Positions 17,397 through 32,815 of a stretch of DNA of 64,000 bases are shown piece after piece (the first letter of the stretch is position 1; every line of letters starts with the position of its first letter). Both the position numbers and the translations under genes were made by a program. Origin of the DNA: Chthoniobacterales bacterium. GTDB lineage: Bacteria > Verrucomicrobiota > Verrucomicrobiia > Chthoniobacterales > UBA10450. The stretch is taken from contig JACDGS010000017.1 in assembly GCA_013821455.1 (NCBI GenBank), positions 4,720 through 68,719 on the forward strand, read 5' to 3'. The notes beneath the pieces were generated by a model. That model saw only the letters and a list, made by a program, of their open reading frames with translations. It searched no databases and was not told where the DNA came from.

Positions 17397-17534
17397 CGCC
17401 GCTTCTTGTCATATAATTATATGATCAGTCAAACGCGCCGAGTCGGCGCGGCGGATTTGCCTAACGATCATGAGCCTCACGCCGCCCGCGTGGTTGACGT
17501 TCGCCCGGCTTCGGTCGATGCAACGCGCAAGCCG

Positions 17535-18713
17535 ATGAAACGCATAATCCCGATCCTCTTCGGCCTGGCGTTGGTGATTCTCGCCGTCTGGTTTGTTCGC
17601 CGGCAAGGGGGCGGCAGCGAGACTTATCGCACGGCTCCCGTGACCCGCGGCGCGCTGACTCAAGCCGTCACGGCCACCGGCACACTTAACCCGGTGGTTA
17701 ATGTTCAGGTGGGCAGCCAGATTTCCGGCAACGTTTCGAAGCTCTCGGTCGATTATAATTCCAGTGTAAAAGCCGGTCAGGTCGTGGCCGAAATTGACCC
17801 GGCGATTTTTAAGGCGGCGGTCACCCAGGCGCAGGGCGACCTGGAAAATGCGCAAGCCGGCTTGGAGCTGGCGCAGATAAATCAAAAGCGCATGGTGGAC
17901 CTGGTCCAAAAGCAAACGACATCGCAGTCCGAGCTCGATCAGGCGAACGCGACGCTCCATCAGGCGCAGGCCAACGTCATGATCAAACAAGGCGCGCTCG
18001 ATCGCGCGAAAACCGATCTCGATCATTGCACGATTACTTCGCCAATCGACGGCACCGTCATTTCGCGAAGCGTCGATGTTGGCCAAACCGTCGCGGCCAG
18101 CCTTTCCGCGCCGATCATTTTCACGATCGCAAATGACCTCACGAAAATGCAGATCGACACGAACGTGGCCGAGGCCGACGTCGGGGTAATCGAGCAAGAC
18201 CAGAATGTCGATTTCACGGTTGATGCATTCCCGAATCGCACTTTCCACGGCACGGTCGTGCAGGTGCGAAACGCGCCCACGACCGTGCAAAACGTCGTCA
18301 GCTACGACACGGTTATCGGCGTGACAAACGCGGACCTAAAATTGAAACCGGGCATGACCGCGAACGTCTCGATCATCGTGGCTCAGCGAGAGAATGTGTT
18401 GAAAGTGGGCAACGCCGCGTTGCGCTTTCACCCGCCTGAAGAAGCTACTGCGGCGCCGAACAGCGATGGTGCTGCGCATCGCCCGGGTCGCGGAAAACCC
18501 GCTGCACGTTCGAGCGAAAAAACCGTTTACGTCCTTGCGTCCGACGCGTCCTCACCGCAACCGATGAAAATCAAGACGGGCATCAGCGATGGAATTTACA
18601 CTGAAGTTTTGGAGGGTTTAAAAGAAGGCGACCAGGTAGTGACAGCGGCGGTGGGCAAGTCGGCGGAGGCAGCCGCCACTAATAATCCCTTCTCCGGCGG
18701 GCGCCGCTTCTAA
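17535..18713 (+). CDS. MacA/HlyD-type periplasmic adaptor of an export system
   Basis: 392 residues from the ATG at 17535 (MKRIIPILFGLALVILAVWF, a membrane anchor). In-frame ATGs further upstream add a poorly conserved 43-residue head. Domain order is the lipoyl half (VNVQVGSQISGNVSKLSVDY), an alpha-helical hairpin (QAQGDLENAQAGLELAQINQ), the second lipoyl half (CTITSPIDGTVISRSVDVGQ), a beta-barrel, and a C-terminal membrane-proximal part. It links the inner membrane transporter to an outer membrane channel. First gene of an operon with the ATPase and permease. No TolC gene is nearby. Confidence 0.93.
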   Translation: MKRIIPILFGLALVILAVWFVRRQGGGSETYRTAPVTRGALTQAVTATGTLNPVVNVQVGSQISGNVSKLSVDYNSSVKAGQVVAEIDPAIFKAAVTQAQGDLENAQAGLELAQINQKRMVDLVQKQTTSQSELDQANATLHQAQANVMIKQGALDRAKTDLDHCTITSPIDGTVISRSVDVGQTVAASLSAPIIFTIANDLTKMQIDTNVAEADVGVIEQDQNVDFTVDAFPNRTFHGTVVQVRNAPTTVQNVVSYDTVIGVTNADLKLKPGMTANVSIIVAQRENVLKVGNAALRFHPPEEATAAPNSDGAAHRPGRGKPAARSSEKTVYVLASDASSPQPMKIKTGISDGIYTEVLEGLKEGDQVVTAAVGKSAEAAATNNPFSGGRRF

Positions 18714-18724
18714 GAGGGCGCGAG

Positions 18725-19495
18725 ATGGCCGAACAAGTTGTCGTTAGGCTGGAAGACGTTCACAAAATTTATCGGACCGGCGAAGTGGATGTGCACGCGG
18801 TCCGCGGCGTTTCGCTCGAAATCGGCAAAGGCGAGTTCGTCGCTTTCATGGGTTCGAGCGGTTCCGGGAAATCGACTTTGATGAACATTCTTGGGTGTCT
18901 CGACCGTCCTTCGCGCGGCCGCTATCTGCTCGATGGCATCGACGTCTCCGGCCTCGCGCGCGATGAGCTGGCAGATATTCGCAACCACAAACTCGGTTTT
19001 GTGTTTCAGAGCTTCAACCTTCTCGCGCGCACGTCTGCGAGGGAGAATGTCGAGCTGCCGTTGCTCTACGGCACCCATCGCCTAACGAGTAAAGAACTCA
19101 CAGCGCGCGCCGACAAGGTCCTCGAGTCCGTGGGACTGGCCGGCCGCGAAGCTCATCATCCGAGTCAGCTTTCCGGCGGTCAGCAACAGCGGGTCGCAAT
19201 CGCGCGCGCGCTCATCAATGAACCGGAAGTGGTCCTCGCCGATGAGCCGACCGGCAATCTCGACAGCCGGACAAGCGCCGAGATCATGGGCGTTTTCCAA
19301 AGCCTGAACGAACGTGGCATTACCATCATCATGGTGACGCACGAAGCCGACATCGCTTCCTATGCCCGGCGCAATATCGTCATGCGCGATGGGCTTGTGC
19401 AGTACGATCAGCCGGTCAAGCAGCGGTTCTCCGCGGCGGGGGAAGCACGCAAACTTTCCGATTCGGTCGCGCTGGAGGTCGAGGCGCCGACGTGA
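18725..19495 (+). CDS. MacB-type ABC transporter ATPase
   Basis: 256 residues. Walker [17 protein letters not shown], the signature [20 protein letters not shown], Walker [15 protein letters not shown] and the switch histidine in [12 protein letters not shown] are all intact. LolD/MacB subgroup. Here the ATPase and permease are separate genes, whereas E. coli MacB is fused. It follows the adaptor by 11 bases. A TCGTTAGGC copy sits in its fifth to eighth codons (18741-18749). Confidence 0.95.
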
Positions 19496-20787: not shown

Positions 20788-22197
20788 TTACTGGCCCAGG
20801 GAGCAATCGGGCTTGATGTCCTGCGCGTAGATATCGCCGCCATCGTTCCGTCCGTCGCTCCAGACCGCGAAGGCCACGTCATTGACTGATAACGTCAGAT
20901 CAAGCCGCGACTTGGAGGAAAGGATCGAGGAAACCGCAAAGGGTGGGCATAGGAAAGTTCCGCTGGGAGATAGTTTCGCTCCGGTAATGGAATCCTGCCC
21001 GAAAGACGCTTCTGACGACCAGACCACAAGCGGCCCAGCGGCAGTAAAGACGTTCGTCACATTCAACACTGCCGATGAGGTGAAGGGTTGCACGACCAAA
21101 CCAAAGTCGCCCCATTGCGCCACGCCAGTGGAGTTGAATTTCTGTCCGGAGATTCCTTCATTCGTTAGGGGGCCTTCCAGAATTTCATCCCAGAAAAGAT
21201 AGGTGTCACCACTCGCCTGGTCATAGGAGACAGCCGGGTTTACCTGGTCATGTGGCGTGTTCGTGGAACCTGGAGTTCCGTTATGCGGGAAAGCTTCCGT
21301 GCCGTCGGCGAGAATATGCTGCGCGCGCGCTTGCAAAGGAGTCACTTCGTACCAACCGAAGACCGCGCCGCCCGCTCCGTCCGTGACGAACGGCGGAAAA
21401 TTTCCAAACTGCAACGAGCCTCCGTCAAAAACGATGACGTTATCAGTCCCCCAAAGGAGAGTTCCATCCGCGCCGATTTTGTTCGCAAGCAAATGCTTCG
21501 GCCCAGTGAATCCCGCCGCGGAAACCCATGACGCAATCACCGATCCGTCATCACCCGCATGCAGATCGGCTAACGAGTAAGTCAGACCTGCCGGAGCGGC
21601 GATGGTAATCCCACTCGGCCCCCATTGTTTCCAGCCACTGCGATTGATTCTCTGGAACATAAGGTTGTTACCTTCAATCCAACCCGCGACCGCGGAGCCA
21701 TCGGAAGTCGCAGTGACTTTAGAGTTACCGAGAAAGTCAGCGCCGCGCGCGACTTCGCGGCCTTTGCTGCCATAAAGTTGTTCGCCAGCCGGACTTACTT
21801 TCACAACTGTGACAACGACGTTGGGATTATGCTTGCGGCGATCGTCAAGAAAGCAAACCAGCGCGTTGCCGTCTTTGTCGACATCGAAGCCATAATCCTG
21901 AGTGGAACTTAGACCCAGGTCGGCGAGCCGAATTCCGCCGGCGGGAAATTGCGGCACGCCACTCGCGTCGAGCCGTTGCAGAAAAACGTCGTAACCAAAC
22001 GGCGGGTTACCGGAAGGGTCGTTATCGAACCAGCTAATATAGCAACCGCCATCACCTGTCGGACGAACCTTCGGTTGCACCTGATCGTCGGGCTTCACGG
22101 CGACGCCGAGATTGGCCATCGGATCGGAGCTCCATTGGGCGAAGGCAGAGCCAGGAAGTAAGAGAGAAAGCGAAAACGCCAGAATAGTGTTTTTCAT
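20788..22197 (-). CDS. Secreted hypothetical protein, beta-rich, 469 aa
   Basis: Starts at the ATG at 22195-22197, giving a clear signal peptide (MKNTILAFSLSLLLPGSAFA). The mature part has repeated segments with a W-x-D/E-x-N pattern and DGN/DGS turns (GGCYISWFDND, GNALVCFLDDRRKHN, GSAVAGWIEGNNLMFQ, GSVIASWVSAAG), like a propeller of about six blades. No catalytic motif was seen. The C-terminus (DGRNDGGDIYAQDIKPDCSLG) has no sorting signal. Confidence 0.7.
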   Translation of the reverse strand: MKNTILAFSLSLLLPGSAFAQWSSDPMANLGVAVKPDDQVQPKVRPTGDGGCYISWFDNDPSGNPPFGYDVFLQRLDASGVPQFPAGGIRLADLGLSSTQDYGFDVDKDGNALVCFLDDRRKHNPNVVVTVVKVSPAGEQLYGSKGREVARGADFLGNSKVTATSDGSAVAGWIEGNNLMFQRINRSGWKQWGPSGITIAAPAGLTYSLADLHAGDDGSVIASWVSAAGFTGPKHLLANKIGADGTLLWGTDNVIVFDGGSLQFGNFPPFVTDGAGGAVFGWYEVTPLQARAQHILADGTEAFPHNGTPGSTNTPHDQVNPAVSYDQASGDTYLFWDEILEGPLTNEGISGQKFNSTGVAQWGDFGLVVQPFTSSAVLNVTNVFTAAGPLVVWSSEASFGQDSITGAKLSPSGTFLCPPFAVSSILSSKSRLDLTLSVNDVAFAVWSDGRNDGGDIYAQDIKPDCSLGQ

Positions 22198-22396
22198 GCG
22201 CAGGAAGCATATGGGGGACATCAATTCGATGAGAAGATTATTCCGTAAAGTCGCCGCCAACATCGTCCATCTATCCCGAATAGCTCAGCATTCTGCTTGA
22301 CGCGCAGACGCAAAATTGAGAGCATGCGCATCTTTACAGGGCAGAGTTGCGATTTCTTCCATCGCGACGTAGAAAAGGGGCCTCATCGCTAAATCC

Positions 22397-24553
22397 ATGC
22401 GCACACGAATACAGTTAGTAACGAGATATCATTCTCTCGTCCTTCTTAGCCTTACTCTATGCGCCGCCTTCGTTGCGACGAATCTCGAGGCGCACGAACC
22501 CGGCACAGGTAACTGGAAGCAGACACTGAAAGTTCCGCCGGCTTCTCCGCCGACGCCCTTGGTCGATGCACCGGTGACGGATGGCTCGTGGACCACGCTG
22601 CCTTACTTGATGACGATCAATCCTATTCACGTTAGCCTCATGCACACGGGCAGGATCTTGATTGTCTCCGGCTCGGAGAAAGAATCCGGTAACTATACCG
22701 CCGGAGAATTCTACGGCGGTGTGCTCGATCTTGCCGCGAGCACGCTCACGGTCCAGGAAATTCCCTGGGATGTCTTTTGCACCGGTATGAGTGCGATGCC
22801 CGACGGGCGCTTCGTGATCATCGGCGGCACACAAAACTACTTTCCATTTGAAGGACTATCTCTGACCACGGTCTTTGATCCCTTGACGGAAAAATTCGCT
22901 CAGGTCGAAGACATGGCCCACGGACGCTGGTACGGAAGCTCGCTGACACTTACTGATGGCAGCGTGATGGCTTATTCCGGCCAGAATGAGAATCACGAGA
23001 TCAACAAGGCGGTCGAGCTTTACAAGGCCGGTATTGGTTGGAGCGCTGAATATATCTCACCGCTGATCCCATCGCTTTATCCCCGGATGCACTTACTGCC
23101 AGACGGCGATGTTTTTGTTTCGGGAACGGTTCCGCAATCAAGCTTATTTCATCCTTCCACTAAGACCTGGACCACCAATGTCGCGACCACAGTTCTGACT
23201 CAGAATCGCAAAGGTGGTTCGTCGGTTCTTCTCCCCTTGCGCCCCGAGGCAGGCTATGACGGTCGCGTCATGATTCTCGGCGGACTGACACCTGCTACTA
23301 AGACTTGTGAGATTATCGACTTTGCGGCCGCGACTCCGGCCTGGCGCTCAACCGCTGCGATGATGTTACCGCGGATTCGCTTGAACGCGGTCCTCCTGCC
23401 TAACGGAAAGGTTTTCGCGTCCGGCGGTTCGTTTTTGGATGAAGATGCCAGCACCGCGAGTCTCGCCGCGGAGATTTTCGATCCGGTAGCGGAGACTTGG
23501 ACCTATGCGGGCACTGCCGTTTATCCGCGGTTGTATCATTCGAGCGCGCTCCTGCTCCCCGACGCCACGGTCTGGATCGCCGGCAGTAATCCCATGGACA
23601 CCTGGGAAGAGCATATGGAAATCTATTCTCCCCCTTATCTCTTTACGACGGATGCTAACGGGAACTCGATCCCGGCCGTGCGCCCGACGATTACAAGTGT
23701 GCCTGCCGAGGTCGGCTATGGCGCATCGTTCGCGCTCAAAACACCGGATGCGGCAAATATCCGCGATGTGGTTCTGGTTCGCCCGGGATCTTCGACTCAC
23801 TCTTTCGATTTCGATCAAAGAGTCGTGGGACTTACTTACACGACTCTCGCGACGCAGCTAAAAGCAACCACCCCGCCTAACGGATCGATCGCGCCGCCGG
23901 GTTACTACATGGTTTTTATTATCAACCAAGCCGGCGTGCCATCGGTCGCAAAGTTCGTTCATCTTTCCGCTAACCCAACGAATGCCGGGCCCAAAGGAAC
24001 GATCACCGCGCCAATGGGAGATCTTTCTATCGGGGAAGGCGACACGATTAATTTCTCCAGCACCGCGACCGACCCAAATGGTACCGTCGCCTCTTATAAG
24101 TGGGTTTTCCCAGGAGGCGTTCCCGTTACCAGCAGCCTGCAATCTCCCGGCGCGGTTCGTTTCGATGCGGGCGGCACTTACACTGTTTCCATGACGGCGC
24201 TCGATGACGCGGGCGCGAACGATCCCAGTCCTCCTATCCGCACTATCACTGTCACCACTAATGACGTGCCGCTTGTCGTGGCCATTACCCAGCCGGCGGC
24301 GGGCGCCACGGTCAGCGGAAAAAAGATCAATGTGACGATGACTGTGAGCGGGACCGAGGATGGTTCTTCGAACACCTTCATCTTTTCCGTGGATGGGACC
24401 CAGGTCGCCTCGCGCACTGCAGTGGCGACCACGATGAGTTTTGTTTGGACCACCGCGAGCTATACTGCGGGCTTGCATACACTCACGGCGACAGTGGTCG
24501 GTTACGATGGCAACCAGGGCGCTGCCAGCGAACAGGTAACGCTAAACAAGTAA
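22397..24553 (+). CDS. Secreted copper-radical oxidase, galactose/glyoxal oxidase family, with PKD and Ig-like domains
   Basis: 718 residues with an N-terminal signal peptide (about residues 1-32). A kelch-type propeller follows. The positions that form the Tyr-Cys cofactor and copper site of galactose oxidase are all present: Cys128 in DVFCTGM, Tyr179 in GRWYGSS, Tyr380-His381 in RLYHSSALLLP, and His468 in GSSTHSFDFDQR. The last lies in the family's early-set C-terminal domain (about 425-525). After it come a PKD domain (TDPNGTVASYKWVFPGG) and an Ig-like domain ending in VVGYDGNQGAASEQVTL. It should oxidise an alcohol or aldehyde and release peroxide outside the cytoplasm; the substrate cannot be read from sequence. 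No separate maturation gene is seen. Confidence 0.85.
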   Translation: MRTRIQLVTRYHSLVLLSLTLCAAFVATNLEAHEPGTGNWKQTLKVPPASPPTPLVDAPVTDGSWTTLPYLMTINPIHVSLMHTGRILIVSGSEKESGNYTAGEFYGGVLDLAASTLTVQEIPWDVFCTGMSAMPDGRFVIIGGTQNYFPFEGLSLTTVFDPLTEKFAQVEDMAHGRWYGSSLTLTDGSVMAYSGQNENHEINKAVELYKAGIGWSAEYISPLIPSLYPRMHLLPDGDVFVSGTVPQSSLFHPSTKTWTTNVATTVLTQNRKGGSSVLLPLRPEAGYDGRVMILGGLTPATKTCEIIDFAAATPAWRSTAAMMLPRIRLNAVLLPNGKVFASGGSFLDEDASTASLAAEIFDPVAETWTYAGTAVYPRLYHSSALLLPDATVWIAGSNPMDTWEEHMEIYSPPYLFTTDANGNSIPAVRPTITSVPAEVGYGASFALKTPDAANIRDVVLVRPGSSTHSFDFDQRVVGLTYTTLATQLKATTPPNGSIAPPGYYMVFIINQAGVPSVAKFVHLSANPTNAGPKGTITAPMGDLSIGEGDTINFSSTATDPNGTVASYKWVFPGGVPVTSSLQSPGAVRFDAGGTYTVSMTALDDAGANDPSPPIRTITVTTNDVPLVVAITQPAAGATVSGKKINVTMTVSGTEDGSSNTFIFSVDGTQVASRTAVATTMSFVWTTASYTAGLHTLTATVVGYDGNQGAASEQVTLNK

Positions 24554-24830
24554 GGCGCGCAGCTTACCTAACGAGCAAAGGGCTAACGAGCTCCGAACCT
24601 CCCGAGCCCGGCCGCCGGGCGACGCACGAGGTCATCCGTGGACTCCTGAGCGCGCTTGGCCGCGTTGGCCGGAGGTTGGCGCCTTTCCAAGTGAGGCTCT
24701 GTCGGACGGAAACTTTACCTCTCTTCTGCTCAGCATGCCCCGGGCCGAGCCAGGCCCGTCCCAAATTTTAATCGGAATTTAATTGCTGGCCTTCAATCTG
24801 CTCACGGGTATTGGATTGAATCTGAACGCC

Positions 24831-25835
24831 ATGTCGCCCTTGGTCAGCATAGTCATCCCGACGTTTGATCGCCCCACTTACCTGGAGGAGGCGGTGCTCT
24901 CCGCGCTCGGGCAGACCTACGCGAATATTGAGGTGCTCGTCGGCGACAACGGCGGCGGTGAAGCGAAGCAGAGATTGTCGCCAGAAATAGTCGCAGATCC
25001 GCGTTTTTCTCACCGGCAAAATTCCCATAATCTCGGGATGTCCGGCAACTTCAACGCGCTGGCCGAGGCGGCGCGCGGCGAATTTTTAGTCGCCATGGGC
25101 GACGACGATCGTCTGCTGCCGGATTTTATCAGCCGACTCGTAGAGGAAATGAAACCGGACGTGAGTCTCGCTTTTTGCAATCACTACCTGATGGACGGCC
25201 AGGGAAAAAGACTCGAAGCCGAAAGCCGCGAACAAACCCGGCGCTACCATCGCGACGGCCTCACGAGCGGCGCGCTCGCCAGCGCGCAAATCGCCGCCTG
25301 GGAACAAGCGATCGCGCTTTCCGCCGCCATGATGCGGACCGCGGATATGCGGCGGCTCCGTTTTCGCGACGACCTGAACACGCCCGATGCCGAGTTCTTC
25401 ATTCGTTTGGCGCAGGAAGGAGCGAAGTTCGTCTTCGTCGCCGATTACCTGGTGGAATATCGCGTGCACGTGGCCGCGACTACCACCTCGGGTCATTGCA
25501 ACGAACGCCTGGTCGAACTACTCCTGCCCGTCGCAGTCACTCCCGCGGTCGAGCCTTATAAGAAGAAGCTGCTTGGTCCATTGATGATGAACGCCGTGAG
25601 CCGTTGCCTGCAAAGAGGCGAGAGAGATCGCGCGAAAAGATTCCTCCATAGCCGTTACTATCCCAGCCGCGCGCCCGTCGATCGTCACTCATCTTCTGCG
25701 GCGAAGAGGTTAGCCGAAGCGGCCGAGCACGCCGTTAAGTTTGGGCTACAACATTTTTGCGCCAGCCTGCCGACAACGATCGGTTGTCCTACTTATAGAG
25801 TCATGAGGGCAGCAAAGGATTGGGTTAGGTCATGA
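24831..25835 (+). CDS. Family 2 glycosyltransferase
   Basis: 334 residues from the ATG at 24831. A TTG 16 codons upstream is a weaker alternative. GT-A fold: VSIVIPTFDRPTYLEEAVLSA, VGDNGGG, and the metal-binding region EFLVAMGDDDRLLPDF. It probably adds a sugar from a nucleotide donor to a polysaccharide or lipid-linked acceptor. It opens the sugar cluster and overlaps the next gene by four bases. Confidence 0.9.
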   Translation: MSPLVSIVIPTFDRPTYLEEAVLSALGQTYANIEVLVGDNGGGEAKQRLSPEIVADPRFSHRQNSHNLGMSGNFNALAEAARGEFLVAMGDDDRLLPDFISRLVEEMKPDVSLAFCNHYLMDGQGKRLEAESREQTRRYHRDGLTSGALASAQIAAWEQAIALSAAMMRTADMRRLRFRDDLNTPDAEFFIRLAQEGAKFVFVADYLVEYRVHVAATTTSGHCNERLVELLLPVAVTPAVEPYKKKLLGPLMMNAVSRCLQRGERDRAKRFLHSRYYPSRAPVDRHSSSAAKRLAEAAEHAVKFGLQHFCASLPTTIGCPTYRVMRAAKDWVRS

Positions 25836-26875
25836 AGATACTCGTCACAGGAACAGAAGGCTATCTTGGCTCCCTTCTCGCGCCGCTCCTTATGCAGCGC
25901 GGTCATGAGGTCACTGCGGTAGACACCGGGTTTTATAAAACCGGCTGGCTCTATCATGGTGCGCCACTTACACCTCGTACCCTTAACAAGGATATCCGCC
26001 ATCTTACCAGCGAGGACTTGGAGGGCATTGAAGCGGTCGTGCACATGGCCGAGTTATCGAACGATCCTTTGGGGGAGTTAGCACCACATATAACTTATGA
26101 GATCAATCATCTGGGATCGGTCCACCTGGCACAGTTAGCCAAGGCTGCGGGAGTAACACGATTTGTTTATATGTCGTCGTGCAGCGTCTATGGCGTCGCC
26201 GATGGAGATTATGTCACGGAAGACTCTCCCGTGAATCCGCAAACGGCTTATGCCATTTGTAAGACCCTGGTCGAACGCGACCTTAGACCGATGGCGGGTG
26301 ATAACTTCTCGCCTACTTTCATGCGCAACGCGACGGCTTATGGGGCTTCACCCCGCATGCGCTTCGACATCGTCCTAAATAACCTCTCCGGCCTCGCCTG
26401 GACGACAGGCGAAATTAAATTGGTTAGTGACGGCACACCCTGGCGACCACTCGTGCATGGGCTTGATATAGCCCAGGCCATCATCTGCGCGCTCGATGCG
26501 CCGAGAGATAACGTCCACAATCAGATCTTCAATGTCGGTGACACGACTCATAACTACACCGTTAAAGAAATCGCTGAGATTGTAGGTAAAGTCTTCACCG
26601 GATGTCAGGTCACCTTTGGCCAGCAAGGCGCCGATAACCGCAGTTATCGCGTATCGTTCGAGAAGATAAGAAGCGCGCTGCCTGACTTTAAGTGTCAGTG
26701 GGACGCGCGGCGCGGCGCGGAACAGTTACGCGCCATCTTCGAGCAAGTCGCAATGACTCCCGAGACCTTCAACTCTCCCGGCTTCACCCGTTTGAAACAA
26801 CTCGAATACCTTATCCGCACCCGGCAGATAGATCAGAACTTCTTCTGGAAGAACGGAACGGTTCCCGCGAAGTGA
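25832..26875 (+). CDS. NAD-dependent sugar epimerase/dehydratase (extended SDR)
   Basis: 347 residues. Nucleotide site TGTEGYLGSLL, then YMSSCSVYG and the catalytic pair in AYAICKTLVERD (Tyr-x3-Lys). Extended SDRs of this kind act as UDP-, dTDP- or CDP-sugar epimerases or dehydratases. With a cytidylyltransferase-like gene and a 3,5-epimerase-like gene nearby, an NDP-sugar substrate is likely. The start overlaps the glycosyltransferase and the end overlaps the next gene (GTGA). Confidence 0.9.
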   Translation: MKILVTGTEGYLGSLLAPLLMQRGHEVTAVDTGFYKTGWLYHGAPLTPRTLNKDIRHLTSEDLEGIEAVVHMAELSNDPLGELAPHITYEINHLGSVHLAQLAKAAGVTRFVYMSSCSVYGVADGDYVTEDSPVNPQTAYAICKTLVERDLRPMAGDNFSPTFMRNATAYGASPRMRFDIVLNNLSGLAWTTGEIKLVSDGTPWRPLVHGLDIAQAIICALDAPRDNVHNQIFNVGDTTHNYTVKEIAEIVGKVFTGCQVTFGQQGADNRSYRVSFEKIRSALPDFKCQWDARRGAEQLRAIFEQVAMTPETFNSPGFTRLKQLEYLIRTRQIDQNFFWKNGTVPAK

Positions 26876-27399
26876 CCTTCACCGAAACTCCCCTCGCCGG
26901 CGCTTTCTTAATCGAGCTGGAACTACACAAGGACGAGCGTGGCTTCTTCGCCCGTACCTTTTGCCGCAGAGAATTCGAAGCACACGGACTCAACCCCGAT
27001 GTCGTGCAATGTAACACTTCCTATAACCATAAGGCGGGAACGATAAGAGGCATGCACCGCCAAAAACCGCCCGCGCGCGAGGCCAAGCTCGTCCGCTGCG
27101 TGCGTGGCGCTATCTATGATGTTATTGTCGACGTGCGCCCTAAGTCACCCACCTACGGTAAGCACTTCGCGGCCGAGCTCACGGCGGATAATCGACGCGC
27201 GCTTTACGTGCCAGAGTCTTTCGCGCACGGCTTTCAAACCTTGGAAGATAATTGCGAGATAGAGTACCAAATGAGTGAGTATCACAGTCCCGGCAGCGCT
27301 ACGGGCTATCGCTACGATGACGCTGCCCTCGCGATCACGTGGCCCTTGCCGGTAACGTTGATTTCAGCACTGGACTTAGCCTGGCCTTCCTTCTTCTGA
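26872..27399 (+). CDS. dTDP-4-dehydrorhamnose 3,5-epimerase-like protein (RfbC family)
   Basis: 175 residues from a GTG at 26872. Cupin-fold epimerase signatures: FLIELELHKDERGFFARTF, the catalytic histidine region AGTIRGMHRQKPP, and YVPESFAHGFQTLED. The family epimerises C3 and/or C5 of 4-keto sugars. It could act on a CDP- or dTDP-sugar made by the neighbouring genes. It overlaps the genes on both sides. Confidence 0.92.
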   Translation: MTFTETPLAGAFLIELELHKDERGFFARTFCRREFEAHGLNPDVVQCNTSYNHKAGTIRGMHRQKPPAREAKLVRCVRGAIYDVIVDVRPKSPTYGKHFAAELTADNRRALYVPESFAHGFQTLEDNCEIEYQMSEYHSPGSATGYRYDDAALAITWPLPVTLISALDLAWPSFF

Positions 27400-28694
27400 T
27401 GCAAACACATGGAGAAGCCATGATGGCGCTGATCACGCGTTTGTATCCTATCGGCCGGAGCATCACTGGCGCTGGCGTCCGCGAAACCTTGGCGATCCTA
27501 AAGGAACATATTCCGCTCGACACTCACGAGATCCCGAGCGGCACCAGGGTCTTCGATTGGACCATTCCGCAAGAGTGGAACATTCGCGATGCCTGGATCA
27601 AAGACGGGGCCGGTGAGCGGCTGGTGGACTTCCAGAAACTCAACCTGCATGTCATGAGTTATAGCGTTCCTATTCAAGGCCGCATGCGACTCGCGGAGTT
27701 GAAGGACCATCTCTATACCGTTCCGGGTTTTCCAGACTGGATTCCCTATCGTACTTCCTATTACAATCCGAATTGGGGCTTTTGCCTAAGTGAGAACCAG
27801 CTGGCCCAGCTTAATGACAAAGAGGAATACGAAATCTGTATCGACTCATCCCTAAGCAATGGGCACCTAACCTATGGGGAGTATCTCCTGCAAGGTGAAA
27901 CCGAGCGCGAGTTTTTGATTTCGTGCCATATCTGTCATCCTTCGCTTGCGAACGACAACCTCTCCGGCATCGCCGTCGCGGTCGAATTGGCTCATCAACT
28001 GTCCACCAAATCTCGACGCTACACTTATCGCTTTGTTTTCGTACCTGGCAGTATCGGTGCGATCGCCTGGCTCGCTCGTAACGAAGAATCCCTGAGTCGT
28101 ATTCAGCACGGGCTTGTCCTCACTTGTGTCGGCGACGAGGCCAACCTCACTTATAAACGGAGCCGCCAGGGAAACGCCGAGATCGATCGCGCTGTCGCCC
28201 ATGTCCTGGGACACTCGGATCGGCCTTACCAAATCGTGGAATTTTCTCCTTATGGCTACGATGAACGACAATACTGTTCGCCGGGGATCAACCTTCCCGT
28301 TGGTTGTATGATGCGATCCGTGCACGGCACCTTTCCCGAGTATCACACGTCTGCGGATAGCCTTAAGTTCGTTAAGGCTGAAGCGCTCCAAGACTCACTC
28401 GATAAGTGTCTGAAAATAATCGATCTCCTCGAACATAATGACAACTATGTGAACCATAGCCCGAAAGGCGAACCACAACTCGGCAAGCGTGGCCTTTATC
28501 AAGGTCTGAGTGCGAAAGAAGATCGACGCGAGCACGAGTTAGCCTTTCTCTGGGTCTTGAATCTTGCCGATGGTACTCACTCGCTTCTGGACATCGCCGA
28601 GCGGGCCAAACTACCTTTCACGGTAATCCGCACCGCTGCGGAGGCCCTTGCCGCAACAGACCTTCTCTCGTTAGGAACCACCGCAAATCTATGA
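27399..28694 (+). CDS. DUF4910-type, M28 peptidase-like protein with C-terminal winged helix
   Basis: 431 residues from the ATG at 27399, overlapping the previous TGA by one base. It has the aminopeptidase-like fold region ISCHICHPSLANDNLSGIAV (a His/Asp metal pattern), GDEANLTYKRSRQGN, SPYGYDERQYCSPGINLPVG and FPEYHTSADSLKF. The last 70 residues look like a winged helix (LLDIAERAKLPFTVIRTAAE). Such proteins recur in polysaccharide clusters, where a peptidase or amidase role on a modified sugar is suspected but not proven to my knowledge. Confidence 0.85.
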   Translation: MQTHGEAMMALITRLYPIGRSITGAGVRETLAILKEHIPLDTHEIPSGTRVFDWTIPQEWNIRDAWIKDGAGERLVDFQKLNLHVMSYSVPIQGRMRLAELKDHLYTVPGFPDWIPYRTSYYNPNWGFCLSENQLAQLNDKEEYEICIDSSLSNGHLTYGEYLLQGETEREFLISCHICHPSLANDNLSGIAVAVELAHQLSTKSRRYTYRFVFVPGSIGAIAWLARNEESLSRIQHGLVLTCVGDEANLTYKRSRQGNAEIDRAVAHVLGHSDRPYQIVEFSPYGYDERQYCSPGINLPVGCMMRSVHGTFPEYHTSADSLKFVKAEALQDSLDKCLKIIDLLEHNDNYVNHSPKGEPQLGKRGLYQGLSAKEDRREHELAFLWVLNLADGTHSLLDIAERAKLPFTVIRTAAEALAATDLLSLGTTANL

Positions 28695-28699
28695 GCCCT

Positions 28700-28825
28700 G
28701 TCATCCCGAGCGGAGCCGAAGGCGCAGTCGAGGGATCCCCGCCGGTTTTCCACAAAGCTCGTGCGCAGGTCTGCAAGGTCATTCCACGGGATCCCTCGAC
28801 TGCGCTACGCTTCGCTCGGGATGAT
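28700..28825. repeat. Palindromic MITE-like repeat, copy B
   Basis: About 126 bases with ends GTCATCCCGAGCGGAGC and CTTCGCTCGGGATGAT, and inner GAGGGATCCC/GGGATCCCTC arms. The ends match the element at 15115-15220, but the centre differs, as expected for a family of hairpin repeats. It separates the DUF4910 gene from lhgO inside the sugar cluster, and the arms could form a long hairpin in RNA. Confidence 0.8.
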
Positions 28826-28852
28826 AAGTAAGATGAGTCGTCCATTTACTCA

Positions 28853-30106
28853 ATGAAAGTCGATTGCGCCATCATCGGCGGCGGCATCGTCGGGCTAAGT
28901 GTCGCCCTGCAACTTGGGCGACGTCAGCCGGGCGTGCGCATCGTTGTCTTGGAGAAGGAGACTCAGCTCGCGAGCCATCAAACCGGCCGCAACAGCGGAG
29001 TTATCCACTCCGGAATCTACTATCCGCCGGGGAGCCTGAAGGCCCGCTTCGCCCGCGAGGGGAATCGCTCGATGATCGCCTTCTGCCAGGAACATGAAAT
29101 CGCGCATGACGTTTGCGGCAAAATCATCGTCGCCACTCGTGAGTCAGAGCTTCCCCTTCTCCACGAGCTCCACCGCCGTGGAGTAGAAAACCAACTCACC
29201 GTCACCGAACTATCCGCCGAAGAAGTCCGCGAGATTGAGCCGCACGTCGCTTGTCTCCGCGGACTAAGTGTGCCTTCCACTGCCATTGTTAGTTACCGTG
29301 AAGTTTGTGTGAGGTTCGCCGACCTTATCGCCGAACAAGGGGGCTGCATACAAACTGAAGCAGAGGTGAGAGAGCTGCGTCACAACGACAGTAGTCATAC
29401 TCTGGAAACCGCTCGCGGTACGGTAGAAGCAAAATTCCTCGTCAATTGTGGCGGCTTGCAAAGCGATCGCCTGGCGCTTGGCGCTGGCCTGCCACTCGAA
29501 GCGCGAATCACACCTTTCCGTGGCGAGTACTATGAGTTGGTTCCTGAACGTCGCCACCTCGTTAACTCACTTGTCTATCCTGTGCCGGATCCTTCCTTTC
29601 CTTTTCTTGGGGTCCACTTCACCAGGATGATAGACGGCTCGGTTCATGCTGGACCTAACGCCGTGCTTGCGCTGAAGAGAGAAGGCTACGCTAAGACCGA
29701 CATTGATCTCCGCGATGTCTGGGACACGCTGAGTTATCGTGGGTTTTGGAATCTCGCGCGCAAACATTACAAAGAAGGTTTCGCGGAAGCATATCGGTCG
29801 CTGAATAAGAGAGCATTCGTGAAAAGTCTCCAACAACTTATCCCGGAAGTAAGCGAGAAGGATATTGTTCCCGCTCCCGCGGGCGTAAGGGCGCAGGCCC
29901 TGCTCCCGAGTGGCGCGCTCGTGAATGACTTCCTTCTCGTCCATGGTCCACAGTCGATTCATGTCTGTAATGCCCCCTCACCGGCGGCGACGGCTTCTCT
30001 GGAGATAGGAAAGGAAATCGCAGAGAAAATCCCACAGTTACGAACGTCCACGTCGGTCCATTTTGCGTCGAACGTTGAACGTCGAACGTCGAACGTTGAA
30101 CGTTGA
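28853..30106 (+). CDS. lhgO: L-2-hydroxyglutarate oxidase-like FAD enzyme
   Basis: 417 residues. FAD site CAIIGGGIVGLSVALQLG, then ASHQTGRNSGVIHSGIYY and KARFAREGNRSM, a strong match to LhgO/L2HGDH. The family oxidises L-2-hydroxyglutarate and related 2-hydroxyacids. Its place among sugar genes is unusual; it might act on a sugar acid here. The last residues (ASNVERRTSNVER) are encoded by a 7-base tandem repeat and are not part of the normal enzyme. Confidence 0.9.
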   Translation: MKVDCAIIGGGIVGLSVALQLGRRQPGVRIVVLEKETQLASHQTGRNSGVIHSGIYYPPGSLKARFAREGNRSMIAFCQEHEIAHDVCGKIIVATRESELPLLHELHRRGVENQLTVTELSAEEVREIEPHVACLRGLSVPSTAIVSYREVCVRFADLIAEQGGCIQTEAEVRELRHNDSSHTLETARGTVEAKFLVNCGGLQSDRLALGAGLPLEARITPFRGEYYELVPERRHLVNSLVYPVPDPSFPFLGVHFTRMIDGSVHAGPNAVLALKREGYAKTDIDLRDVWDTLSYRGFWNLARKHYKEGFAEAYRSLNKRAFVKSLQQLIPEVSEKDIVPAPAGVRAQALLPSGALVNDFLLVHGPQSIHVCNAPSPAATASLEIGKEIAEKIPQLRTSTSVHFASNVERRTSNVER

Positions 30107-30111
30107 ACGTT
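30070..30111 (+). repeat. Six tandem copies of a 7-base unit GAACGTY across the lhgO stop
   Basis: GAACGTT/GAACGTC is repeated six times from 30070, and the lhgO TGA (30104-30106) lies inside the array. Because the unit is not a multiple of three, gain or loss of one copy shifts the frame and moves the stop. Confidence 0.85.
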
Positions 30112-30121
30112 GACTTAGGTT

Positions 30122-31366
30122 ATGGCCACTAACTCTGCCTATCTCTGCCGCTTTTGCGAAACCCCCTTGCGCCAGACCTTCGTCGATCTGGGACTCTCGC
30201 CTCTGTGTGAGTCATACGTCTCGCCCGAGCAGATGAAAGAACCCGAGACTCTCTATCCGCTGCACTCTTTCGTTTGCGAAGAATGCTATCTGGTCCAACT
30301 GCCGGAATACGTCTCGCCGCGGGCCATCTTTGAGGAATATGCCTACTTCTCTTCCTATTCCGATAGCTGGCTCGCGCACGCGAAGAGCTATGTCTCGGAC
30401 ATCTCCGAAAGACTAAACCTAAATGCACAATCACTCGTCATAGAGTTAGCGAGCAACGACGGCTATCTTCTCCAGTATTTCCTGGAGCGAAAGATTCCGG
30501 TATTAGGAATTGAGCCGGCGAAGAATGTCGCGCAGACAGCCATCAAGAAGGGCATTCCCACGGTAACGGAGTTCTTCGGCGTGAAACTCGCCCGTAAGCT
30601 TGCCACCGAAGGCCGCCAAGCCGATCTGTTGCTCGGTAATAACGTTCTGGCGCACGTGCCCGACATCAATGACTTCGTCGGCGGCATGAAGATCCTCCTG
30701 AAGCCTACAGGAGTGATCACGATGGAATTTCCTCACCTTATAAGACTGATTGAAGAAAATCAGTTCGATACCATCTATCACGAACATTTCTCCTATCTCT
30801 CCTTCACCACCGTCTCAAGGATCTTCGAGGCACACGGACTTAGACTCTTTGACGTCGATGAGATAAAGACTCACGGCGGTTCGCTGCGAATCTACGCTTG
30901 TCATGCGGACGATAACTCGAAGCCTGTCTCAGCGACGGCGAAGCGGCTTACTCAAACAGAGGCCGATTGGGGAATCGCGAAGTTAGAACCCTACACGGCC
31001 TTCACTCAAAAAGTCGAAGCAACTAAGCGAGGCCTCCTTCGCTTCCTCATTGAAACCCGGAGCGCCGGTAAGACCATCGCCGGCTACGGAGCGCCCGGAA
31101 AAGGAAATACCTTGCTCAACTACTGCGGAATCCGCACCGACTTTCTCGATTACACGGTGGATCGCAGCACTTATAAGCAAGGGAAGTTTACTCCGGGAAC
31201 GCGTATCCCTATTTATGCTCCGGAAAGGATCAGGGAGACGAAGCCTGACTTTCTCTTCATCCTGCCGTGGAATTTGAAGGATGAAATCATGCAGCAATGT
31301 TCCTACATTCGCGAGTGGGGCGGGAAATTTGTGGTGCCGATTCCCGAGGTAAAGGTATATGACTAG
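30122..31366 (+). CDS. Sugar C-methyltransferase-like SAM enzyme with zinc-binding N-terminus
   Basis: 414 residues. An N-terminal putative zinc site (CRFCETPLRQTF and HSFVCEECYLVQLP) is followed by the SAM fold (VIELASNDGYLLQYFLERKI, LLLGNNVLAHVPDINDFV). The C-terminal domain has TIAGYGAPGKGNTLLNYCGI. This three-part layout is that of NDP-sugar C-3/C-5 methyltransferases of the TylC3/NovU type. It suggests that the cluster makes a branched-chain or C-methylated deoxysugar. Confidence 0.9.
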   Translation: MATNSAYLCRFCETPLRQTFVDLGLSPLCESYVSPEQMKEPETLYPLHSFVCEECYLVQLPEYVSPRAIFEEYAYFSSYSDSWLAHAKSYVSDISERLNLNAQSLVIELASNDGYLLQYFLERKIPVLGIEPAKNVAQTAIKKGIPTVTEFFGVKLARKLATEGRQADLLLGNNVLAHVPDINDFVGGMKILLKPTGVITMEFPHLIRLIEENQFDTIYHEHFSYLSFTTVSRIFEAHGLRLFDVDEIKTHGGSLRIYACHADDNSKPVSATAKRLTQTEADWGIAKLEPYTAFTQKVEATKRGLLRFLIETRSAGKTIAGYGAPGKGNTLLNYCGIRTDFLDYTVDRSTYKQGKFTPGTRIPIYAPERIRETKPDFLFILPWNLKDEIMQQCSYIREWGGKFVVPIPEVKVYD

Positions 31367-31378
31367 GAGCTTGTGGCG

Positions 31379-32158
31379 ATGAAGGTAGTTCTATTTTGTG
31401 GCGGTCAGGGAATGCGGTTGCGTGAAGGTCCGCAACCGGTGCCGAAACCGATGGCGGTGATCGGTTATCGCCCGCTCCTTTGGCATTTGATGAAGTATTA
31501 TTCCCACTACGGGCATAATGAATTCATCCTTTGTCTCGGTTATGGAGCAGATATCATCAAACAGTCATTCCTTAACTACAATGAGTGTGTCTCGAACGAC
31601 TTTGTCTTATCCGATGGCGGCAAGAAAGTAGAGTTACTGCGCAAGGATATCGAGGATTGGCGAATAACTTTTGTCGATACCGGCCAGAACTCTAATGTCG
31701 GTCAGCGCCTCCTGCGCGTAAGGCGCTTCCTCGAGGGTCAGGAGGTCTTTCTGGCTAACTATGTTGATGGCCTGACCGATCTGGTCTTACCGCACGAGAT
31801 CGATTATTTCCTGGCGAAGAAGAAGGTGGCTTGTTTCCTGGGAGTGACACCTACGGCCAGCTTTCACACAGTCACGGTCGAAGCCGATGGAGCGGTCAGT
31901 GAGATTGCGCACATTGCTCGCTCCGGCAATCTGATTAACGGCGGCTTCTTTGTTTTGCGACAGGAAATATTTAATTACATCCAGGAAGGTGAAGACCTGG
32001 TCGAAGAACCTTTTCGTCGCCTCATCGCGGAACGCCAGCTTATCACTTATCCTTACGACGGCTTTTGGGCTTGCATGGATACCTTCAAGGAGAAGCAACA
32101 ACTGGAAGACTTGCACGCCAGCGGTCGCGCGCCTTGGCGAGTGTGGGACGCGATCTAA
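31379..32158 (+). CDS. Glucose-1-phosphate cytidylyltransferase-like nucleotidyltransferase
   Basis: 259 residues from the ATG at 31379; a GTG two codons earlier is possible. A GGAG ribosome site lies nine bases upstream. MKVVLFCGGQGMRLREGPQP and PKPMAVIGYRPLLWHLMKYY match the RfbF-type catalytic loop, and HNEFILCLGYGADIIKQSFL follows. The family makes CDP-glucose from glucose 1-phosphate and CTP, the entry to 3,6-dideoxy and branched sugars. Confidence 0.9.
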   Translation: MKVVLFCGGQGMRLREGPQPVPKPMAVIGYRPLLWHLMKYYSHYGHNEFILCLGYGADIIKQSFLNYNECVSNDFVLSDGGKKVELLRKDIEDWRITFVDTGQNSNVGQRLLRVRRFLEGQEVFLANYVDGLTDLVLPHEIDYFLAKKKVACFLGVTPTASFHTVTVEADGAVSEIAHIARSGNLINGGFFVLRQEIFNYIQEGEDLVEEPFRRLIAERQLITYPYDGFWACMDTFKEKQQLEDLHASGRAPWRVWDAI

Positions 32159-32176
32159 GTCTGCGGGAAATAACTC

Positions 32177-32815
32177 ATGCTGGAACTAGCTATCCCTGAA
32201 GGCGCGAAAAACATCCTATGTCTCGGCGCGCATGCCGATGACATCGAGATAGGTTGCGGCGGGACCTTGCTGAAATGGATCGCCGCGCGCCCAGACCTTC
32301 GTGTGCGCTGGGTGGTTTTTACTGCCGAAGGGAAGCGCGCGGGAGAAGCGCGCCAAAGTGCAAAGGTCTTACTCGGTAAGTCGGCCGGAAAGGTCGTGTT
32401 AAAAAACTTCCGCACGAGTTTTCTTCCCTTCCAGGGAACCAAGGTAAAAGAGTTCTTCGAGACTTTGCGAGATGGTCACGAGCCGGATGTTATCTTCACA
32501 CATTATCGCGACGATCGGCACCAGGATCACCGGCTTCTTTCCGATCTGACTTGGAATACTTTTCGGAACCACCTCGTCCTGGAGTATGAAATTCCGAAGT
32601 ATGACGGCGACCTGAGCAGCCCTAACTTCTTCGTCCCACTCGATAAGCATCTAAGTCACACAAAAGCGGCGCATATCTGCCGTTACTTTCAGACTCAGGG
32701 CAACAAACACTGGTTCGCGGAAGAGACCTTCCTCGCCCTTATGCGCCTGCGCGGTGTTGAATGCGCCACGCAGTACGCCGAAGCGTTCTACTGTCGCAAG
32801 CTGGTCTGCGCCTGA
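32177..32815 (+). CDS. PIG-L/LmbE family deacetylase
   Basis: 212 residues. The zinc motif GAHADDIEIGCGGTL (AHxDD type) and the second site THYRDDRHQDHR are intact. Relatives remove N-acetyl groups from sugars such as GlcNAc derivatives. Here it would tailor an amino sugar of the cluster. It is the last gene of the plus-strand cluster, and its stop directly abuts the convergent ppdK stop. Confidence 0.92.
   Translation: MLELAIPEGAKNILCLGAHADDIEIGCGGTLLKWIAARPDLRVRWVVFTAEGKRAGEARQSAKVLLGKSAGKVVLKNFRTSFLPFQGTKVKEFFETLRDGHEPDVIFTHYRDDRHQDHRLLSDLTWNTFRNHLVLEYEIPKYDGDLSSPNFFVPLDKHLSHTKAAHICRYFQTQGNKHWFAEETFLALMRLRGVECATQYAEAFYCRKLVCA

Follow-up and report, generated by a model that had tools for sequence, protein, structure and literature searches.

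A predicted GlxA-type copper-radical oxidase in a Chthoniobacterales bacterium and gene pairings among its relatives

Results

Residues and domains of the oxidase

The window analyzed here is a 64,000-nucleotide stretch of the genome of a Chthoniobacterales soil bacterium of the phylum Verrucomicrobiota (assembly GCA_013821455.1, contig JACDGS010000017.1, positions 4,720 to 68,719); positions below are counted from its first nucleotide. The gene at 22397..24553 on the + strand encodes a predicted secreted copper-radical oxidase (CRO) of 718 residues. It is likely a catalytically competent, Sec-exported enzyme of the GlxA type, whose best candidate substrate is an alcohol or aldehyde of the cell's own envelope or of extracellular material. 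The assignment draws on the open reading frame, on Pfam domains, on the match to GlxA of Streptomyces lividans (PDB 4unm), which is the best solved relative by sequence (E 3.1e-42), and on an AlphaFold2 model. A preliminary description of the window had given the same coordinates, and these and the length proved correct; the codons of the five residues below were read by eye. Sequences are coded by L numbers for loci, G numbers for genomes, and C numbers for contigs of the window genome.

The preliminary description had also proposed five cofactor and copper-ligand residues within four motifs. The motifs FCTG, WYGSS, YHSSALLLP, and THSFDFDQ are all found, and the five residues stand at the proposed places and align with those of GlxA, whose numbering is obtained by adding 30 to the chain index, which agrees with Trp288 and with the last residue, 645. 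Cys128 (22778..22780), the predicted thioether partner, is the equivalent of GlxA Cys121 by structure-sequence match and alignment. Tyr179 (codon 22931..22933, read by eye), the predicted radical tyrosine, is preceded by Trp178, a further active-site residue absent from the earlier account, and pairwise and profile alignments place the two (22928..22933) at GlxA Trp288-Tyr289. The copper ligands Tyr380 and His381 (23534..23539; codons 23534-23536 and 23537-23539) correspond to Tyr501-His502, and His468 (23798..23800) to His589. All of these codons are on the + strand, as are the domains below. The protein thus has the cofactor Cys and Tyr and the Tyr/His/His ligands of a CRO, from which the thioether itself is predicted.

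Conservation was assessed in an alignment of 105 rows, comprising the window protein and 104 loci, among which L018/L051, L019/L053, and L027/L091 are probably duplicate contigs. The five residues and Trp178 are complete in 97 of the 105 rows and near-invariant across many phyla. Cys is kept in 99 of the 100 rows that have a letter at this position, Trp in 99 of 101, Tyr179 in 100 of 101 (the remaining one is X), Tyr380-His381 in 105/105, and His468 in 104/104. Six of the eight incomplete rows are truncated or broken: a contig or locus end cuts off the N-terminal region of L022, L056, and L112, the L024 gene is split over two frames, L025 is without the region of the last His, and this region is damaged in L054. 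In the other two, Ala replaces Cys (L078) and Tyr replaces Trp (L100). All ligand and cofactor positions are thus conserved in relatives, and they agree with the model, which is confident and can be superposed on GlxA.

The kelch-type propeller, residues 61-428 (22577..23680), was delimited with Pfam kelch repeats, the GlxA alignment, and the model; it carries Cys128, Trp178, Tyr179, Tyr380, and His381 and would have seven blades, as judged from its homologs GlxA and galactose oxidase. It is followed by a galactose oxidase (GO)-like E-set domain, residues 429-522 (23681..23962; PF09118, 1.9e-27), which carries His468. Propeller and then E-set is the architecture of a CRO. A PKD domain (PKD_4, PF18911, 4.7e-08; residues 541-609, 24017..24223) and a bacterial Ig-like domain (Big_7, PF17957, 3.6e-12; residues 627-698, 24275..24490) complete the protein. 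Such domains are common spacers and are typical of surface proteins. Residues 1-32 (22397..22492) form a probable Sec signal peptide, with a positive start, a hydrophobic stretch at approximately 13-30, and cleavage near LEA/HE; it was recognized by eye in the translation and by hydropathy, without a predictor, and lies within the low-confidence residues 1-59 of the model. The signal peptide (as probable) and the PKD and Ig-like domains put forward in the preliminary description are therefore present. A Pfam scan of the protein did not find a carbohydrate-binding domain.

Comparison with solved structures and family models

The AlphaFold2 model, built from a 42-row alignment, has a mean predicted local distance difference test score of 87.8, and 540 of its 718 residues score at least 90. 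Foldseek ranked GlxA at the top with this model, as did VIA-align (Z 50.5, root mean square deviation 1.9 Å, 458 residues), and a profile search of solved structures matched GlxA at 1.8e-96. Sequence matches weaker than GlxA were the copper oxidase 6ryw of Colletotrichum (3.2e-39), the alcohol oxidase 5c86 of a fungus (5.8e-36), the bacterial galactose oxidase 9g8h (7.8e-34), and two Fusarium enzymes, galactose oxidase (at best 4.4e-28) and the glyoxal oxidase 9n3u (5.9e-22). In VIA-align, the bacterial galactose oxidase 9g43/9g8h gave Z 48.7/48.6, the galactose oxidase 1gof Z 47.1 (2.1 Å over 449 residues, 26% identity), and 9n3u Z 43.8 (2.4 Å over 449 residues, 25% identity); other propellers gave Z 23.8 and below.

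Likeness to GlxA extends over the fold, the equivalents of Cys121, Tyr289, Tyr501, His502, and His589, and the Trp directly before the radical Tyr. The two proteins differ in that GlxA has a stretch of approximately 110 residues, between chain positions 116 and 230, that is missing from the window oxidase, whereas the latter has PKD and Ig-like domains. The window oxidase also falls below the cut-off of the GlxA equivalog model NF052501 (248.8 bits, cut-off 800; the kelch protein at 39326 scores 128.2). A match to PF07250 (44 bits, cut-off 37.5) was considered as evidence for a glyoxal oxidase and rejected as non-discriminating, since the plain kelch control scored 52.7 bits. The window protein is a genuine and probably active bacterial CRO of the GlxA type, and so belongs to an already known kind of enzyme.

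A GlxA-type second shell

The galactose oxidases compared here share the fold and ligand set of the window oxidase and differ from it in the aromatic residue that stacks on the cofactor. The galactose oxidase of Pseudarthrobacter siccitolerans (9g43, 9g8h) has Gly-Tyr and a Trp290-type stacking residue, where the window oxidase has Trp-Tyr and Asn: in the profile alignment, 9g8h has its Trp in GGSW and the window oxidase has SGQN, with Asn197 at the Trp290 place. The Fusarium graminearum galactose oxidase of subfamily AA5_2 (1gof) carries an N-terminal carbohydrate-binding domain that is not in the window oxidase. According to PMC13094651, its stacking Trp290 comes from a separate loop; in the window oxidase, Trp directly precedes Tyr. 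Consecutive Trp-Tyr, in addition to the ligands, is common to the window oxidase and the F. graminearum aldehyde (glyoxal) oxidase of AA5_1 (FgrAldOx, 9n3u), which has the lowest Z of the CROs listed here and carries a WSC domain; PMC13094651 describes the consecutive, flipped Trp beside Tyr in both FgrAldOx and GlxA and a GlxA activity profile similar to that of FgrAldOx.

The window oxidase accordingly has the Trp directly before the radical Tyr that is a trait of GlxA orthologs, and does not have the AA5_2 aromatic at the Trp290 place. Trp immediately precedes Tyr in 99 of the 101 rows with a letter in the 105-row alignment, and as judged from these sequences the sampled group has a GlxA-type second shell. 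The galactose oxidase-like site of the preliminary description is thus retained insofar as the protein is a secreted bacterial CRO with all cofactor and ligand positions, and is revised in that its layout is that of GlxA and aldehyde oxidase, Trp-Tyr, rather than Gly-Tyr with a distant Trp. Because Trp and Tyr are consecutive and Asn occupies the Trp290 place, oxidation of small aldehydes or primary alcohols with release of H2O2 seems likelier than 6-oxidation of galactose.

In literature searches with subscription papers outside their scope, we found no published link of galactose oxidase and kelch with Verrucomicrobi*, no literature on GlxA with Trp288 in Streptomyces lividans (in that spelling), and none on galactose oxidase of Pseudarthrobacter siccitolerans.

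Genomic context

The window genome, 97.5% complete at 4.3 Mb in 117 contigs, contains the GO-like E-set domain only twice, in the window gene and in a paralog on contig C62. The paralog is 57% identical to the window oxidase over the core and has the full residue set. It was considered as a pseudogene, with one TAG in the longer alignment, and this was rejected, as the frame is uninterrupted over the core (655 residues). Right behind it, at 8287-13001 of L155, are genes whose translations, by eye, resemble Mu-type phage transposition and protease genes. A secreted kelch protein at 39326-41452 of the window, which the preliminary description had offered as a natural contrast, is indeed a pure kelch-repeat protein without the E-set according to Pfam. 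Kelch-like matches are also found on contigs C16, C31, C37, C82, and C95, an expansion within this genome.

Upstream of the oxidase gene is a divergent gene for a secreted protein without a Pfam match, and further upstream are an HlyD-type and an ABC protein and, by eye, a MacB-like protein. Downstream on the same strand, after approximately 230 bp, are genes for a family 2 glycosyltransferase (GT2), an epimerase, an RmlC-like protein, and others of the sugar-cluster type. A cslA-type gene adjoins glxA, whereas none is found by Pfam among the genes adjacent to the window oxidase; the next gene encodes a Glycos_transf_2 protein of 350 residues, which is not of the size of the cellulose-synthase type. 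The coupling of glxA with cslA raised the idea of an operon that would include the sugar genes further along (24783-32815); this was rejected as evidence, as the gene order is not found downstream of the CRO of a sister species (L154) and, among 80 loci, a GT2 cluster was seen again in just 3. The L154 contig ends 5' of the CRO, so only its downstream side can be compared. By eye in translations, the window neighbors were seen neither there nor around the C62 paralog. Inspection by eye of the N-terminal 90 residues of a single member per cluster revealed no recurrent copper chaperone or peroxidase among the 25 neighbor clusters listed.

The preliminary description had further suggested attack on a polymer outside the cell. 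We found no support for this: polysaccharide lyases and glycoside hydrolases are absent from the Pfam-scanned neighbors (24783-32815 downstream; 17406-19495 and 20788-22263 upstream), and the oxidase itself is without a carbohydrate-binding domain. PKD and Ig-like domains often serve simply as spacers, and the best-studied relative in bacteria takes part in building up a glycan and not in breaking one down (PMC9040799). The GC content at third codon positions of the oxidase gene, 0.63, is ordinary for the window. A scan for promoters and terminators found 0 and 2, below the means of 1.2 and 3.5 in shuffled sequence.

Distribution and phylogeny

The oxidase gene is rare in its family. With a CRO match threshold of E 1e-30 or better, and with the window genome included in each count, a CRO was found in 2/5 genomes of the genus, 7/83 of the family, 15/213 of the order, and 7/288 drawn from the phylum. 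A scan of named genomes gave at least 547 relatives, and the best 80 were used. Among these, the closest sequences from outside the genus come from metagenome-assembled genomes (MAGs) of soil Acidobacteria and Rokubacteria, at 52-57% identity, and from a Nitrospirae MAG, in which a fragment is 63% identical over 250 residues.

A phylogenetic tree of 97 rows was constructed with the quick method of IQ-TREE, with SH-aLRT support only, after L018, L019, L022, L024, L025, L027, L095, L098, and L112 (duplicates, fragments, and long proteins) had been left out. The window gene, its paralog, and the sister species group together (support 94) inside a mixed clade (support 97), and other Verrucomicrobiota CROs are scattered over several other places. 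The supports of 94 for the window group, 93 for the aminotransferase subclade, and 90 for the HAF clade described below are all under the program's mark of 95, and we therefore use "neighboring subclade" loosely. Given these closest relatives in soil Acidobacteria and Rokubacteria, horizontal transfer is suggested as the simplest reading, although it is not proven.

Archaeal CROs with all six residues occur in a Halogeometricum limi strain and in Nitrosopumilus and Nitrososphaera MAGs (L073 5950-7533, L074 1296-2882, and L090 5950-7530) and form one clade with support 100. No report of an archaeal CRO was seen among the top-ranked literature titles, a check of titles only, with subscription papers outside it, which is no proof of absence. 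In L010-L015, L032, and L033, of the same class or order as the window genome, the CRO domain lies within open frames of 1658-2980 codons, and the L010 frame adds legume-lectin, Ig, and PKD domains.

Gene pairings in related CRO clades

In a neighboring subclade of 14 tree rows (support 93), a gene for a pyridoxal phosphate (PLP)-dependent aminotransferase with a twin-arginine translocation (Tat) signal adjoins the CRO gene. The protein matches Pfam Aminotran_1_2, and its nearest NCBIfam models are PRK09105 and PtaA, with all 25 shown below the cut-off. In a first neighbor screen of 24 wider-clade, 20 HAF-group, and 60 other loci, with flanks of varying length, this gene was beside the CRO in 8/24, 0/20, and 0/60 loci, respectively; in two of these first-screen loci, L039 and L054, it is upstream of the CRO instead. 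Two pair loci came to light afterward, L037 (via L200) and L145, the latter with another CRO from the genome of L044/L046. A close aminotransferase homolog (1e-60) anywhere in the genome was detected in 12/20 wider-clade genomes, all belonging to the 14-row subclade, and in one outsider.

The association was also examined in reverse, in 298 genomes of one order, 39 of which have the aminotransferase at 1e-100; 39 of the 259 negatives served as controls. A CRO at 1e-30 was found in 24/39 aminotransferase genomes and 2/39 controls (Fisher 1.1e-7), and a close CRO at 1e-100 in 14/39 and 0/39 (Fisher 2.9e-5). When the five genomes that had come up before in the CRO search are left out, the values are 1.4e-6 and 5.4e-4, respectively; kinship is ignored in all four. 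Of the 14 genomes that have both the aminotransferase and a close CRO, 12 carry the two genes next to each other on the same strand, with the CRO first; the genes are on different contigs in G505 and apart in G696. In the thirteen pair loci read in detail, which are these 12 plus L037, the gap ranges from -11 to 757 bases, a Tat-like motif is present in 13/13, and the PLP lysine is kept in 12/13. The pair loci, all same-strand, are L145 and L189-L200 (13), and also L039, L040, L041, L054, and L056, with Acidobacteria, Rokubacteria, and Nitrospirae MAGs among the carriers. Among 26 aminotransferase homologs read, the PLP lysine is lost in L133 (Ser), L134 (Ile), L137 (Asn), and L196 (Glu), and these four are possibly pseudoenzymes.

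In a different CRO clade of 18 tree rows (support 90), a gene for a HAF-repeat protein (TIGR02913/DUF3466) abuts the CRO gene in 14/18 rows, or in 16/20 loci when the fragments L022 and L024 are counted, which we assigned to this clade although neither is in the tree. These loci are L021-L024, L059-L062, L067, L072, L075, L080, L085, L097, L101, and L104. The HAF gene is on either side of the CRO, upstream or downstream, and 12 of the 16 gaps are between -4 and 14 bases; in the neighbor screen, it was beside the CRO in 0/24 wider-clade and 0/60 other loci. No HAF gene was found at the window CRO, and the HAF-like matches on other contigs of the genome are weaker. Neither pairing is reported among the top-ranked literature titles, with the same scope as for the archaeal CROs.

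The pairing with an aminotransferase suggests alcohol-to-amine chemistry in the subclade. Precedents are PtaA of Pseudomonas, an active Tat-exported transaminase (PMC6206403), and an artificial cascade of galactose oxidase and transaminase for polysaccharide amination (PMC10898118). A reading of rather low probability is that the clade holds a natural extracytoplasmic oxidase-transaminase module, in which the CRO would convert primary alcohols of an envelope or extracellular glycan, or of a small molecule, to aldehydes and the Tat-exported aminotransferase encoded next to it would convert these to amines, with the window lineage keeping the oxidase without the partner. The window genome is without a close aminotransferase of this kind (its best homolog is at 8.0e-39, 33%), and its CRO has no HAF gene beside it; the module is therefore a lead on the clade and not a claim on the window gene.

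Discussion

By analogy with the family, the window oxidase would bind one copper outside the cytoplasm through Tyr179, Tyr380, His381, and His468. Copper and an oxidant would then drive formation of the Cys128-Tyr179 thioether as a self-made cofactor, on which Trp178 would stack and shield the radical. As in CRO chemistry generally, two electrons would be taken from a primary alcohol or hydrated aldehyde and passed to O2, giving H2O2. The GlxA-like second shell would favor small aldehydes and simple primary alcohols over C6 of galactose. The least certain step is the natural substrate, for which the most likely candidate would be an alcohol or aldehyde group that belongs to the cell's own envelope or to extracellular material, as has been proposed for GlxA. 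According to PMC9040799, a chaperone of the SCO1/SenC type supplies copper to GlxA, and GlxA, with CslA, acts in glycan deposition rather than degradation; a developmental phenotype of a glxA mutant is described in PMC3543389. The window genome has four SCO1/SenC matches over the cut-off.

Several points weigh against this proposal. The role on surface material is drawn by analogy only, and the substrate preference is deduced from a single second-shell feature; some AA5 active-site positions do not track substrate, according to PMC11267884. Trp is present at position 196, one before the Trp290 equivalent, in 6/105 rows, and the second-shell split across the group may not be clean. SCO1 proteins are widespread, being found in 6/14 control genomes, and the downstream sugar genes were not seen beside the sister-species copy (L154) in translations read by eye.

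Three other explanations were weighed. The window oxidase could be an alcohol oxidase of the galactose type, AA5_2-like, that acts on sugar hydroxyls of polysaccharides. The shared fold and ligand set, the E value of 7.8e-34, and the small gap in Z between GlxA and 9g43/9g8h would fit this, but sequence, profile, Foldseek, and VIA-align comparisons all favor GlxA, and Trp rather than Gly before Tyr179, together with Asn197 at the Trp290 place, makes a galactose-type enzyme unlikely. It is still less probable that the retained protein is a catalytically dead kelch/E-set adhesin or scaffold: although kelch stretches are numerous in the genome beyond the two CROs, including the one at 39326 without the E-set, and although PKD and Ig-like domains would suit a surface protein, the six residues are kept and near-invariant across the 105 rows, and the His468-bearing E-set occurs only in the two CRO copies, both with the full residue set. 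We regard such a dead protein as very improbable.

The third explanation is that the exported oxidase itself works in a module with a PLP aminotransferase, from alcohol to aldehyde to amine, and that in the window lineage the aminotransferase is either encoded elsewhere in the genome or lost. The Tat-signal aminotransferase is beside the CRO in the neighboring subclade and in none of the other CRO groups screened, the co-occurrence and adjacency in the reverse test point the same way, and unlinked homologs at 5.0e-82 or better are found in G325 of the same genus and in G303 and G304 of the same family. The window genome, however, has distant homologs only, none beside either CRO; 15/39 aminotransferase genomes are without a CRO at 1e-30, so the aminotransferase also occurs alone; and the PLP lysine is gone in the four homologs noted above. 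For the window gene, we hold this to be quite improbable.

To our knowledge, few bacterial CROs have been characterized, among them GlxA, FbfB, and enzymes of Burkholderia and Pseudarthrobacter. A large, thinly sampled group of bacterial and archaeal CROs can now be placed with a GlxA-type active site, and a plain galactose oxidase label in soil bacteria may mislead as to substrate. The window oxidase is more interesting for the gene pairing of its clade than for itself. CRO roles have so far mostly been guessed via phenotypes, and the aminotransferase in one subclade and the HAF-repeat protein in another clade are testable partners. If the oxidase-transaminase module is real, it would be a natural counterpart of the engineered cascade of galactose oxidase and amine transaminase for polysaccharide amination.

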